From Haloarcula limicola (GTDB lineage Archaea; Halobacteriota; Halobacteria; Halobacteriales; Haloarculaceae): a stretch of 64,000 bases of DNA. The translations under genes were made by a program, and so were the position numbers. The stretch covers positions 62,001-126,000 of the forward strand of contig NZ_WRXM01000001.1 in NCBI RefSeq assembly GCF_010119205.1, in the 5' to 3' direction. How positions within the stretch are numbered: the stretch's first letter is position 1; every line of letters begins with the position of its first letter. Below the pieces are notes generated by a model that ran no database searches, was not told where the DNA came from, and worked only from the letters and a program-made list of their open reading frames with translations. Below are positions 15,147-30,864 of this stretch, one piece after another.

Positions 15147-15625
15147 AGCGCGACCACGACCATCGTCACCAGCATCGACCCGGTGAGCAGCGCCTGGACG
15201 ACGCTCGACGCGAGCATCCCGACAGTCGTCACGAGCGCCGCCCGCAGTCCCTGCTTGGCGTCCTGTTGACGCCAGAACTCCACGGCGAACACCGTCGCGG
15301 CCACGCCGAGGATGAGGCCCACCGGTCCGGTGACGAAGAAGAGTAGCAGGCCGACGATCCCCGCGACGACCGCCGTCGTGGTCGACGCGCCGCCGACGCG
15401 GGCCGCGACGGCCCCGCCGAAGAAGTCGACGATCCACGTCAACACGCCGACCAGCGTCAGGCCGACGAGCACCACGAGCGGGAGGCCGACGGCGTACCAA
15501 TAGACGTAGACGCCCGCGAGCGACAGCAGCGCGCCGGGCACCTGCGGGACGAGGCTGCCGACGACGCCGCCGACGAGCAGGGCGAACGCGAGGACGACCA
15601 GTATCGTCTCGGTTCCGGTGATCAT
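15143..15625 (-). CDS. DUF456 family membrane protein
   Basis: A 160-residue integral membrane protein with about four to five hydrophobic helices and Gly-rich packing (LLVGGVVGSLVPQVPGALLS, DFFGGAVAARVGGAS, VTGPVGLILG). The pattern matches DUF456, whose molecular role is not established. The ATG at 15625 overlaps the tmcA stop (ATGA, 15622-15625) and its own stop overlaps the next ATG, so tmcA, this gene and the zinc protein form a coupled three-gene unit. Confidence 0.78.
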   Translation of the reverse strand: MITGTETILVVLAFALLVGGVVGSLVPQVPGALLSLAGVYVYWYAVGLPLVVLVGLTLVGVLTWIVDFFGGAVAARVGGASTTTAVVAGIVGLLLFFVTGPVGLILGVAATVFAVEFWRQQDAKQGLRAALVTTVGMLASSVVQALLTGSMLVTMVVVAL

Positions 15626-17937
15626 GTGTGGCGGTCCAGTTCCTCCTGTACCCACTCCTCGCCGTAGAGTCGCGTCAATCTTTCGACGCTTCCGCCGAGC
15701 GCCCGCATGCACTGTCGCCGCGAGACGAAGCCGAGTTCGTCGGTCACGCTGTCCCACGACCGCGCCTGCAACACCTTCCGGACGAGCAGTCGCTCCTCGC
15801 GGTCGGTGAGCGCGTCCGGGTCGTCGGGCGCGACGAGATGTCGAACCGCGAGCGCCCGAAACGGCGCGGGATCGGTGTCGAGGATGGCCGCGCCGCCCGG
15901 GACGCCGGCGACGAGTCGCCACTCCCAGTCGGAGAGGTCGAGCGGGGGCGCGCCGTCGACGGCCCGCAGCGCCGCCCGCACCACGTCCGGGTCGCAGTCT
16001 GAGAGCGCGTCGGAGAGGACGGCACCGACGCGAGCGAGGAACCACTCCGCGTGTCGCTCGGCGAGCGCTCGACCGGTCTCCGAACGGGGGTCGAGCATCA
16101 CTGCGGAGTACTCGCCGCTCGTGTCGTTGCGCGACGTGGAGAGGTGGACAGTATCGAACCCGTTCCGCCGCCAGAACCGGACGAGTTCCGGCGTCGCGCC
16201 GTAGCCGACGCCGAGCCAGTCCGCCTCGTCGTCGAACTCGGTACGGACCCCGTCGAGGAGACGCGACCCGAGGCCGCGTGACCGGACTGCGGCGTGGGTG
16301 GCGATGCGGAGGACGCGCTGACCGACCGGGACGCCCGCGGCCTCGTCGCGCAGTTGAGTCGTCAGCACGTCGGGGACCATGTTCCCGCGGATGCGCCCGC
16401 CCTCGTACATCGTTGCCCGCGTCTCCGCGTCCAGATCGCCCTCCTGCGCGAGCAGCGCGACGGCGACGACGTGGTCGCGGTCGGACTGCCGGTCCGACGT
16501 AGTCAACGCCCGAGCAGAGAGATTCGGGGCGTCGAGCAGCCGCGCGAGGTCGGCGGGTTCGGTGCGGTAGTGAGCCAACACGAGCAAGCCGAACACCTCC
16601 CGAAGCAGGTGTTCGTCGGCGAGCAGGTCGGCGCTCGTCAGCCGGCGGTACTCGACCGTCTCGGGCGTGGCGTCGGCGACCAACTGCTCGACGGGCGGCC
16701 GCGCGTCGAGCAACAGCGCCCGGAACGCCCACGTTTCCACCGGGTCGGCGTCGGCGTAGCGGATCGGCGTCGTCATCGTCACGTCCGTCACCGCGCGGTC
16801 GCTCTCGGCCAGTCGGTCGCGGAACCGCACCGAGAAGCCGCGTCCGGCCCCCTCGTAGCCGTGAACCGTCGTCGTGAAGGCGACGGCCGGGGCGGAGAGC
16901 AGCGATTCGAGCCGCCGGACCGGCAGCGCGGCGGCCTCGTCGACGACGACTACGTCGGGGTCTTCGGGTAGCTCGACGGCCGCGGCGGGCTTCGCGAACC
17001 TGATTCGGCCACCGCTTCTCCCGTCGCCCCCGCCCTCGCTGTCCCCGCTGCTATCAACCGCGCCGTCGCCCGCGACGCGCAGCTCGCGAGGGGCGTCCTC
17101 CCTATCGCCCTCGAAGGCGACATCGCACGTCTCGAACAGCGACGCCGCGCGAGCGAACACCTCGGCCGCGCTCCGATACTGCGGCGCGGTCACGAGGACG
17201 TCGCGCCCGTCGAGCGCGAGATTCGCCGCGGCGAGTCCGGCGGCGCTCGATTTCCCGCGGCCCCGGTCGGCCTCCACGACGACGGCGTTGCCGACCTCCC
17301 GAAGCGTCTCGAAGGCGCGGATGGCCGCGACCTGGTCGTCGGTGAGACACGCATCGTAAGTCTCGGGCCGAAACGCGGCGTCGTCCGGCGGGGCCGGCGG
17401 CGCGGTCGGACGGCGCGGCGGCGGGTCGGTCAGCCCGCGCTTCTCGACGGTATCACCCTCCGCAGTCACCCTCACGACGGCGACGCCGCGATGCGCGCGC
17501 AGCGTCTCGACTAAGCGACGGCGGAAGTGACCGCTCACGTCATCGACGCCGAACGGCGGGACGGCGAGGGTGCCGTCGAAGGCATCACGCTTCTCGGGCC
17601 ACTCCTCCAGCGATGGCGTCAGGAGGACGAGCAGACCGCCGCCGTCCACCGCGCCGACGGCAGTCCCAAGCGCGTTCGGTCGGAGTTCGTCGTGACAGTC
17701 TAGCACGACCGCGGTTCGGGTCCGCCCGAGTAGCTCGCTCGCCCGGGCCTGCTCGTGGCGTTCGCAGCCCAGAAACTCGTCGGGACCGAGCAGCGTCGTC
17801 TCCTCGCGGGGGATCTCGGCGGCGTCGAGCGCCGCCGCGGCGCGGTCGCGGGTCCGGGGGGCGTCGCCGGCCAGCACGAGCACCCGCCGCTCGTTCGACC
17901 GACGGGCCTCCGCGCGTAGCGACCGTGCGAGGTCCAT
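15622..17937 (-). CDS. tmcA: tRNA(Met) cytidine acetyltransferase
   Basis: A 771-residue enzyme that makes N4-acetylcytidine; archaeal homologues can modify many RNAs. An N-terminal DUF1726-like domain precedes a helicase-like ATPase domain with Walker A ADRGRGKSSAAGL (about residue 219) and Walker B VVVDEAAALP (about residue 325). A GNAT domain with RIATHAAVRSRGLGSRLLDGV and FWRRNGFD follows, then a C-terminal tRNA-binding region. Between Walker A and B is a Gly/Ser-rich acidic insert (DSSGDSEGGGDGRSGG) that looks like a disordered loop. All expected motifs are intact. Confidence 0.93.
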   Translation of the reverse strand: MDLARSLRAEARRSNERRVLVLAGDAPRTRDRAAAALDAAEIPREETTLLGPDEFLGCERHEQARASELLGRTRTAVVLDCHDELRPNALGTAVGAVDGGGLLVLLTPSLEEWPEKRDAFDGTLAVPPFGVDDVSGHFRRRLVETLRAHRGVAVVRVTAEGDTVEKRGLTDPPPRRPTAPPAPPDDAAFRPETYDACLTDDQVAAIRAFETLREVGNAVVVEADRGRGKSSAAGLAAANLALDGRDVLVTAPQYRSAAEVFARAASLFETCDVAFEGDREDAPRELRVAGDGAVDSSGDSEGGGDGRSGGRIRFAKPAAAVELPEDPDVVVVDEAAALPVRRLESLLSAPAVAFTTTVHGYEGAGRGFSVRFRDRLAESDRAVTDVTMTTPIRYADADPVETWAFRALLLDARPPVEQLVADATPETVEYRRLTSADLLADEHLLREVFGLLVLAHYRTEPADLARLLDAPNLSARALTTSDRQSDRDHVVAVALLAQEGDLDAETRATMYEGGRIRGNMVPDVLTTQLRDEAAGVPVGQRVLRIATHAAVRSRGLGSRLLDGVRTEFDDEADWLGVGYGATPELVRFWRRNGFDTVHLSTSRNDTSGEYSAVMLDPRSETGRALAERHAEWFLARVGAVLSDALSDCDPDVVRAALRAVDGAPPLDLSDWEWRLVAGVPGGAAILDTDPAPFRALAVRHLVAPDDPDALTDREERLLVRKVLQARSWDSVTDELGFVSRRQCMRALGGSVERLTRLYGEEWVQEELDRHT

Positions 17938-18082: not shown

Positions 18083-18098
18083 TCGAAAGCGCTTTTAG
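18083..18098 (+). promoter_or_regulatory. BRE/TATA of the rpl7ae operon
   Basis: cgaaa followed by gcttttag. With the usual spacing, transcription would start near 18120, which leaves about 125 nt of leader before the ATG at 18248. Such a long leader is unusual in a genome where most starts look leaderless. The remainder of 17938-18082 holds nothing I can identify. Confidence 0.5.
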
Positions 18099-18127
18099 GG
18101 CCGGTGGCACAGAATGGGGTACAGCCT

Positions 18128-18238
18128 GCGCCGGGTTGATGATGCTCCCAGCCTTCTCAGGACTACGCATGCCATCGCGGCGTGCCGCGGGGTCTCCCGC
18201 GAACGGCGGGGGAGCCTGAGCCCGCGCGCAGGAGGTGA
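18128..18238 (+). promoter_or_regulatory. Box C/D-like kink-turn in the rpl7ae leader, with Shine-Dalgarno
   Basis: Outer arms: gcgccggg (18128-18135) pairs with cccgcgcgc (18221-18229) with one bulged base. Inside, tgatgat (18137-18143) resembles box C and ctga (18216-18219) is box D. Directly inside those, gctccc (18144-18149) pairs perfectly with gggagc (18210-18215). A hairpin gcatgc/gcgtgc (18167-18172, 18180-18185) fills the interior. A strong Shine-Dalgarno, ggaggtga (18231-18238), follows the outer stem and precedes the ATG by 9 nt. L7Ae binds such kink-turns, so feedback on its own translation is likely. Confidence 0.65.
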
Positions 18239-18247
18239 ATCATACAA

Positions 18248-18610
18248 ATGCCAGTATACGTAGATTTCGACGTTCCGGCCGACCTCGAGGACGACGCCCT
18301 CGAGGCGCTGGAAGTCGCACGAGACACGGGCAGCGTGAAGAAAGGAACCAACGAGACGACCAAGGCCGTCGAGCGCGGCTCCGCCGAACTCGTCTATGTC
18401 GCCGAGGACGTCCAGCCCGAGGAGATCGTCATGCACATCCCCGAGCTGGCCGACGAGAAGGGCGTCCCCTTCATCTTCGTCGAGCAGCAGGACGACCTGG
18501 GCCACGCCGCGGGTCTCGAAGTCGGCTCGGCCGCCGCCGCCATCGTCGACTCGGGCGAGGCCGAAGGCGACGTCGAGGACATCGCCGACAAGGTCGAGGA
18601 GCTCCGCTGA
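18248..18610 (+). CDS. rpl7ae: Ribosomal protein L7Ae
   Basis: A 120-residue RNA-binding protein of the 50S subunit that also binds kink-turns in box C/D and H/ACA guide RNAs and in RNase P. The family core is clear: [49 protein letters not shown], with the NETTKA loop that contacts the kink-turn. It is first in an operon with S28e, L24e and Ndk, 11 bp before rps28e. The leader carries a candidate kink-turn and a strong ribosome-binding site, so it is probably autoregulated. Confidence 0.97.
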
Positions 18611-18621
18611 GGTGACCAGAG

Positions 18622-18849
18622 ATGAGTGCTGAGGAATCCGAAGGAAGCGGTGCCACGCCCGCCGAGGTCATCGAGATCGTCGGCAAGACGGGGATGCACG
18701 GCGAGGCCATGCAGGTCAAGTGCCGCATCCGCGAGGGCGAGAACCAGGGCCGTATCATCACGCGCAACGTGCTGGGTCCCGTCCGCGAGGGCGACGTGCT
18801 GCAGCTCCGCGAGACGGCCCGCGAAGCCGACTCCATCGGAGGTCAGTGA
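18622..18849 (+). CDS. rps28e: Ribosomal protein S28e
   Basis: A 75-residue 30S protein with an OB-like fold. The diagnostic segments [32 protein letters not shown] and [10 protein letters not shown] are present. An acidic N-terminal extension ([11 protein letters not shown]) fits halophilic adaptation. It sits between rpl7ae and rpl24e with gaps of 11 and 2 bp, the standard archaeal order. Confidence 0.96.
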
Positions 18850-18851
18850 CG

Positions 18852-19223
18852 ATGCCCCGAACGAGAGAATGTGACTACTGCGGGACGGACATCGAACCCG
18901 GTACGGGGACGATGTTCGTTCACAACGACGGGACGACCGTCCACTTCTGTTCCTCGAAGTGCGAGAACAACGCCGAACTCGGCCGCGAGGCCCGCAACCT
19001 GGGCTGGACCGAGTCTGGTCGCGGTGCCGGCGGCGAGGTCGAACACGCCGACGACACCGTCGAGGACGAGTCCGCAGAGGACGAGGCGGACGACGTCGCT
19101 CCGGACCTCGAAGCCGCCGAGGACGAGGCAGAAGCGGACGAGTCTGAAGAGGAAGCGGAAACGACCGAAGAGAGCGAGAGCGAATCCGAAGAGGACGAGG
19201 AGACGGAGGAGGCCGAGGCCTGA
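18852..19223 (+). CDS. rpl24e: Ribosomal protein L24e with long acidic C-terminal tail
   Basis: A 123-residue protein. The first ~65 residues are ordinary L24e, with a zinc finger formed by [16 protein letters not shown] and FCSSKCENN, then [16 protein letters not shown]. The remaining ~57 residues are almost entirely Glu, Asp, Ala and Ser, ending [12 protein letters not shown]24e proteins are usually about 60-70 residues, so this is a real extension and not a start-site artefact. Its TGA overlaps the ndk ATG by one base. Confidence 0.94.
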
Positions 19224-19687
19224 TGGCCGACGCCGAGCGCACCTTCGTCATGGTCAAGCCCGACGGCGTCCAGCGCGGACTCATCGGCGACATCGTCTCC
19301 CGCTTCGAGGAGCGCGGGCTGAAGATGGTCGGCGGGAAGTTCATGCAGATCGACCGGGACCTCGCCGAGGAGCACTACGGCGAGCACGAGGACAAGCCGT
19401 TCTTCGAGGACCTCGTGGACTTCATCACGTCGGACCCGGTCTTCGCCATGGTCTGGGAAGGGCAGGACGCGACGCGGCAGGTCCGCGACATGATGGGCGA
19501 GACGGACCCCGCGGAGTCCGCCCCCGGTACCATCCGCGGCGACTACGGGCTCGACCTCGGTCGGAACGTCGTCCACGGCTCCGACCACGAGGACGAGGGC
19601 GCGAACGAGCGCGAGATCGCGCTGTTCTTCGACGAGGACGAACTCGTCGACTGGGAGCGCATCGACGAGACCTGGCTCTACGAGTAA
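19223..19687 (+). CDS. ndk: Nucleoside diphosphate kinase
   Basis: A 154-residue enzyme that balances nucleoside triphosphates through a phosphohistidine. The start [20 protein letters not shown] is diagnostic, and the catalytic His lies in NVVHGSDH near residue 117. ATP-binding residues in RGDYG and [10 protein letters not shown] are intact. It is last in the ribosomal protein operon, with a one-base overlap with rpl24e, the typical archaeal arrangement. Confidence 0.96.
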
Positions 19688-26077: not shown

Positions 26078-26151
26078 AGCCAGGGGTGGGATTTGAACCC
26101 ACGAACTCTCGATTACAAGTCGAGTGCTTGGACCACCCAAGCTCCCCTGGC
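26078..26151 (-). tRNA. tRNA-Thr (anticodon TGT)
   Basis: Read on the minus strand this 74-nt gene has a perfect 7-bp acceptor stem (GCCAGGG/CCCTGGC), a D arm with GCTT/AAGC, an anticodon arm CTCGA-CTTGTAA-TCGAG with anticodon TGT, and a T arm GTGGG-TTCAAAT-CCCAC. The discriminator is T. CCA is not encoded. It decodes ACA/ACG threonine codons. Confidence 0.95.
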
Positions 26152-30780: not shown

Positions 30781-30864
30781 CGGTGGGGCTGGGATTTGAA
30801 CCCAGGAATCCGTGAGGATACCTGCTTTCAAGGCAGGCGCAATAGGCCGCTCTGCCACCCCACC
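30781..30864 (-). tRNA. tRNA-Ser (anticodon TGA)
   Basis: An 84-nt type II tRNA on the minus strand. The acceptor stem GGTGGGG/CCCCACC is perfect, the anticodon arm CCTGC-CTTGAAA-GCAGG gives TGA, a long variable arm follows (TATCCTCACGGATT), and the T arm is CTGGG-TTCAAAT-CCCAG. The discriminator is G, as expected for serine. CCA is not encoded. It reads UCA/UCG codons. Confidence 0.95.

Follow-up and report, generated by a model that had tools for sequence, protein, structure and literature searches.

A conserved kink-turn leader of the L7Ae mRNA in Halobacteria and its proposed role in L7Ae feedback

In Halobacteria, the mRNA of ribosomal protein L7Ae carries a genuine, class-wide kink-turn leader, which we describe here from Haloarcula limicola (the window: the whole 64,000-nucleotide stretch of DNA that was analysed) and from its relatives. 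The best reading of this element, at a probability of about 0.8, is that it would let L7Ae repress its own translation. With this analysis, an RNA regulator so far only hinted at in haloarchaea gains a well-supported structure.

Position and fold of the leader

Leaders were extracted for 80 relatives of the window's L7Ae fetched from the genome collection; the 5' block from 79 relatives together with the window gives 80 leaders, one relative (L060) being cut by a contig end. Two alignments were scored, one of 68 leaders (A1) and one of 36 more divergent leaders (A2). The window contains the following features:

18092–18097, + strand: promoter TATA box of rpl7ae, CTTTTA; TTTA at fixed spacing in 80/80 loci
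18125–18136, + strand: 5' arm of the outer (C) helix, pairing with 18220–18232; changes on both sides at 7/12 pairs in A1 and 9/12 in A2
18137–18142, + strand: bulged kink-turn strand, with UGAU as the bulge (L3 = U18140) and then G18141-A18142; U-G-A invariant in 68/68 A1 leaders
18144–18149, + strand: 5' arm of the inner (NC) helix, pairing with 18210–18215
18151–18153, + strand: GCC, continuing the inner helix by pairing with GGC 18205–18207
18159–18162, + strand: apical AGGA, a conserved element that is AGGGA in many relatives, located by regular expression in distinct leaders
18164–18203, + strand: variable insert with small hairpins, its length varying widely among species
18210–18215, + strand: 3' arm of the inner helix, pairing with 18144–18149
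18218–18219, + strand: GA of the non-bulged kink-turn strand, within CTGA 18216–18219; invariant in 68/68 A1 leaders
18220–18232, + strand: 3' arm of the outer helix, sharing the initial AGG with the Shine-Dalgarno sequence; from fold and covariation
18230–18238, + strand: Shine-Dalgarno sequence, AGGAGGUGA, identified by sequence and mostly paired in the predicted fold
18248–18610, + strand: rpl7ae (L7Ae / eL8), 120 aa, with the GTNETTK RNA-contact motif; best PDB match 1s72_F (E 1.4e-67)
18622–18849, + strand: rps28e, downstream of L7Ae in the same direction in 80/80 loci
18852–19223, + strand: rpl24e, downstream of L7Ae in the same direction in 80/80 loci
19223–19687, + strand: ndk, its start overlapping the rpl24e stop (TGATG); 80/80 loci

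A sequence-only reading of this DNA had named a box C-like tgatgat at 18137–18143, a box D ctga at 18216–18219 and inner arms at 18144–18149 and 18210–18215, and these segments, like all others that it named within 18120–18247, lie exactly there. Its outer arms (18128–18135 with 18221–18229) likewise pair around one bulged base, C18225. It had the Shine-Dalgarno (SD) sequence begin just after the outer stem; in fact, the outer helix is three bases longer (18125–18127 with 18230–18232), joining 18125–18136 to 18220–18232 and including the initial AGG of the SD. The inner helix is set off from the tandem GA by a small 1x2 irregularity. The predicted energy of the leader folded singly is −67.7 kcal/mol, where shuffled copies average −53.1 (z = −3.73; 0/200 shuffles as stable), and in the predicted ensemble the SD is mostly paired and the start codon region mostly open.

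The TTTA of the TATA box lies 26–28 nt upstream of the initial TAC of the element in 80/80 leaders, a fixed distance that suggests that transcription probably starts at the outer arm, near 18117–18124. A start downstream of 18150 appears unlikely from the sequence. Leader lengths range from 88 to 189 nt across the 80 loci.

The protein encoded downstream is close to the ribosomal L7Ae of Haloarcula marismortui (1s72_F), with PDB 6hct also among its matches. L7Ae gave one match per genome in 391/391 genomes, and its GTNE segment is present in 140/140 loci. Divergently upstream of the leader lies a long open reading frame (15622–17937, − strand) that we read from its sequence as TmcA (tRNA-Met cytidine acetyltransferase); TmcA occupies this position in 48/80 relatives, and other flanks may be truncated. 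Elsewhere in the window, two tRNA genes (26078–26151 and 30781–30864, − strand) are the sole Rfam matches at the gathering threshold. A possible nop5 regulon was also considered, and no kink-turn was seen upstream of 29 Nop-family genes; several of these look leaderless and the gene starts are wrong or uncertain in some, which makes this a weak negative.

Covariation and the kink-turn core

Scored with the structure, A1 has 97.5% of its cells paired and 11/21 pairs changed on both sides, with 0/500 shuffles as good; when the partners were slid, at most 57% were paired. At least one leader sequence is common to both sets (L084 in A1, L220 in A2) and served to transfer the structure to A2, where 83.7% of cells are paired and 17/21 pairs are changed on both sides (0/500 shuffles), A2 being a largely, not wholly, separate test whose members were found with the covariance model R1 (below) or picked as its misses. 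RNAalifold, run on a mixed divergent alignment, returned a poor consensus. Covariation in the arms upstream of rpl7ae is thus strong in both sets, in agreement with the pairing first proposed.

Kink-turns were also sought with a purpose-written motif search. Its strict form places one in 83/140 leaders, as compared to 21/700 dinucleotide-shuffled controls and 22/695 windows taken at random from these loci, and not all of the leaders that it missed were re-examined otherwise. A looser form discriminates less well (89/128 leaders, about 8% of controls). That rate of matches to controls, in a GC-rich genome, is what a chance hairpin would have in its favour; covariation in two sets refutes such an origin, the element is moreover present across the class, and we give chance practically no weight.

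Five core positions, U18140, G18141 and A18142 on one strand and G18218 and A18219 on the other, never change in A1 (68/68 leaders), while L1 and L2 of the bulge vary among relatives (GAU, CAU, UGU, CGU). The bulge can be read as four nucleotides (UGAU) in most leaders and is exactly three in a few relatives, and the element has the standard kink-turn arrangement of a 3-nt bulge and tandem G.A/A.G pairs between two helices. In the solved complex of L7Ae with the Archaeoglobus fulgidus l7ae UTR, the protein contacts G1b and G2n via its GTNE residues (Huang, Ashraf and Lilley 2019, PMC6298567), and an invariant core beside drifting bulge bases is the pattern expected from these contacts. With strong covariation and a core kept among relatives, the original reading of an L7Ae-binding-type kink-turn in the rpl7ae leader holds up. 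Its expectation that relatives would keep the C/D boxes is borne out for the GA core and not for CTGA itself: the 'box D' is GCGA or GTGA in many relatives, so the conserved part is GA.

One lineage would speak against L7Ae feedback, judging from its sequences. In family f2 (L206, L210, L216, L218, L227, L228 and L235, in A2), the 2n G that L7Ae contacts is replaced by A, giving CAAG for CGAG; the L7Ae of this family keeps GTNETTK unchanged and has no change matching the 2n A.

UGAUGA and CUGA, facing each other, are like those in the kink-turn of a box C/D guide RNA, and a Haloferax mediterranei RNA study (PMC5852579) reports small RNAs, HM9_V and HM10_V, from both strands of the region that separates rpl7AE from the adjacent gene. 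A guide RNA embedded in the leader is nevertheless exceedingly improbable: there is no C'/D' pair, the interior from C to D is paired in covarying helices and offers no open guide, its length differs greatly from species to species, GCGA replaces CUGA in many relatives, and no Rfam family matches the leader.

Spread across Halobacteria and natural variants

R1, built from A1 and run on 391 whole Halobacteria genomes with a cut-off of E ≤ 0.01, matched 371/391 genomes and 81/86 genera, nearly always once each. These matches adjoin L7Ae wherever the two were compared, namely by listed coordinates and, for 30 genomes of divergent genera, by reading of the sequence. All 20 genomes without a match have a divergent or minimal kink-turn upstream of L7Ae when read by eye: in 16 the leader is a divergent version of the one described, its bulge usually CGU, and the other four (L172–L175, deep families f5 and f11) have a minimal hairpin, about 30 nt long, in which the bulge is AAU or GAU and both GA are present. 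Placed directly before the SD in f5 and f11, this minimal hairpin may be the ancestral form.

In the genome of the window, R1 finds the leader only (next best E 7.7). Six genomes gave extra matches (best E 4.5e-6), which fall within or beside other coding genes; the best of those read has an SD and an outer-stem look-alike without the GA/GA core, and we found no convincing second copy of the element.

An SD-like motif is present in 116/128 distinct leaders and, in the window, lies inside or beside the kink-turn stem. Twelve leaders (L154, L156, L157 and L159–L167; genera g44 and g60) lack it and keep the kink-turn, which argues against simple SD masking. Where the detector placed the kink-turn among the 128 distinct leaders, its GA stands mostly 24–31 nt from the AUG; in the minimal forms the distance is 15–17 nt. 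If the leader bound L7Ae and acted on mRNA stability or on completion of transcription, rather than on translation initiation, both the survival of the kink-turn beyond the SD in g44 and g60 and the permanently folded look of the helices would find an explanation. A near-constant distance from kink-turn to AUG is, however, more easily understood as an effect on initiation, and the published cases act on translation; we consider this alternative quite improbable.

A regular expression places AGGA or AGGGA after the 5' inner strand in 120/128 leaders, including leaders with a different inner-stem sequence, a count that is slightly generous in that one listed match, GCCCAGGAGGTGA, is the SD and not the loop. 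Such persistence, even where the surrounding stem has been replaced, could suit a leader that senses a signal other than L7Ae, for example via this loop, with the kink-turn merely architectural as in riboswitches. Yet the gene on which the element sits encodes the very protein that binds kink-turns, and the minimal kink-turn of deep lineages is retained without the apical loop, leaving such a sensor very improbable. Less remote, and still doubtful, is the proposal that these leaders form a larger, separate class of L7Ae control RNA without SD masking, in which the apical loop would bind a second factor, with expression of the L7Ae-S28e-L24e-Ndk operon depending on this factor and L7Ae together.

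Other candidate roles for the leader were rejected. An alternative UCCU/AGGA hairpin, considered as an anti-kink-turn switch, shows no covariation above shuffles, and none with UCCY. As a mimic of 23S rRNA, the leader does no better than shuffled sequence against the LSU of its own genome: the 5' half scores 17 (shuffled mean 17.9) and the 3' half 22, the 95th percentile of shuffles.

Proposed feedback and comparison with known systems

In the preferred reading, feedback by L7Ae on its own synthesis, the rpl7ae mRNA of Halobacteria would start with the structured leader, with the kink-turn as its core. We infer that free L7Ae, once it exceeds its sites on rRNA and guide RNAs, would bind the kink-turn in the mRNA that encodes it, blocking translation initiation, a negative feedback that might through translational coupling also reduce S28e, L24e and Ndk. 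Precedents in Sulfolobus and Archaeoglobus strongly suggest such a role by analogy. The block would be steric or locking, at the near-constant distance of mostly 24–31 nt from the AUG; we favour it over a simple open/closed SD switch since, by prediction, the helices need no protein to be stable, and since genera that lack an SD still have the kink-turn. These same observations make doubtful the earlier proposal that bound L7Ae stabilises the fold as a switch. As modelled, the high stability of the fold without protein would also weigh against the feedback reading, unlike the unstructured leaders behind the published switch. The SD mechanism is reportedly not used in Haloferax volcanii (Kramer 2014), where masking of the SD may therefore be of minor importance. 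Leaders that have lost the SD, carry a changed 2n or, in deep lineages, form minimal kink-turns are natural variants that offer a way into how L7Ae would block translation where the SD is little used.

The A. fulgidus l7ae UTR has its GAU bulge and GA/GA core in the same polarity and a C helix that reaches into the SD (PMC6298567). Its stem is unstructured without L7Ae, as it has been argued it must be, a requirement that the helices of haloarchaea, with their predicted stability, do not fit; the -1b:-1n pair is C:A there and, by our own reading, mostly U:G in haloarchaea.

Autoregulation of l7ae has been shown in vivo in Sulfolobus acidocaldarius (Daume et al. 2017, PMC5539422). That study surveyed 121 archaeal leaders, identified the Kt-b and Kt-n strands in the l7ae leader of H. 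volcanii, and tested 50-bp fragments with Sulfolobus L7Ae in E. coli; downregulation was seen with the H. volcanii fragment and, over the seven archaeal leaders other than that of Sulfolobus, with all but A. pernix and the excluded P. aerophilum. The sequence-only reading knew of no such description in haloarchaea; with H. volcanii included in this study, if only as 50 bp, that claim is wrong and should be dropped. A legend in the same paper places the aligned Kt-b strand further upstream than the 50 bp that were assayed, and the published haloarchaeal test was thus probably made without one of the two kink-turn strands.

With the l7ae leaders of that paper, the haloarchaeal element shares a 3-nt bulge ending in U, the tandem GA, a position in the 5' UTR near the SD, and L7Ae downstream. 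It differs in the spacing of its kink-turn strands, which reaches about 170 nt, in the long helices that flank the kink-turn on either side and in its variable insert; and where high conservation of the leader was reported there for Sulfolobales only, the leaders of Halobacteria are also well conserved. The principle of L7Ae control is known from other archaea, and its larger, class-wide haloarchaeal version has not been worked out before. What appears to be new is the class-wide architecture: long stems, a variable insert, a conserved AGG(G)A loop at the apex, a near-constant distance to the AUG and survival without an SD.
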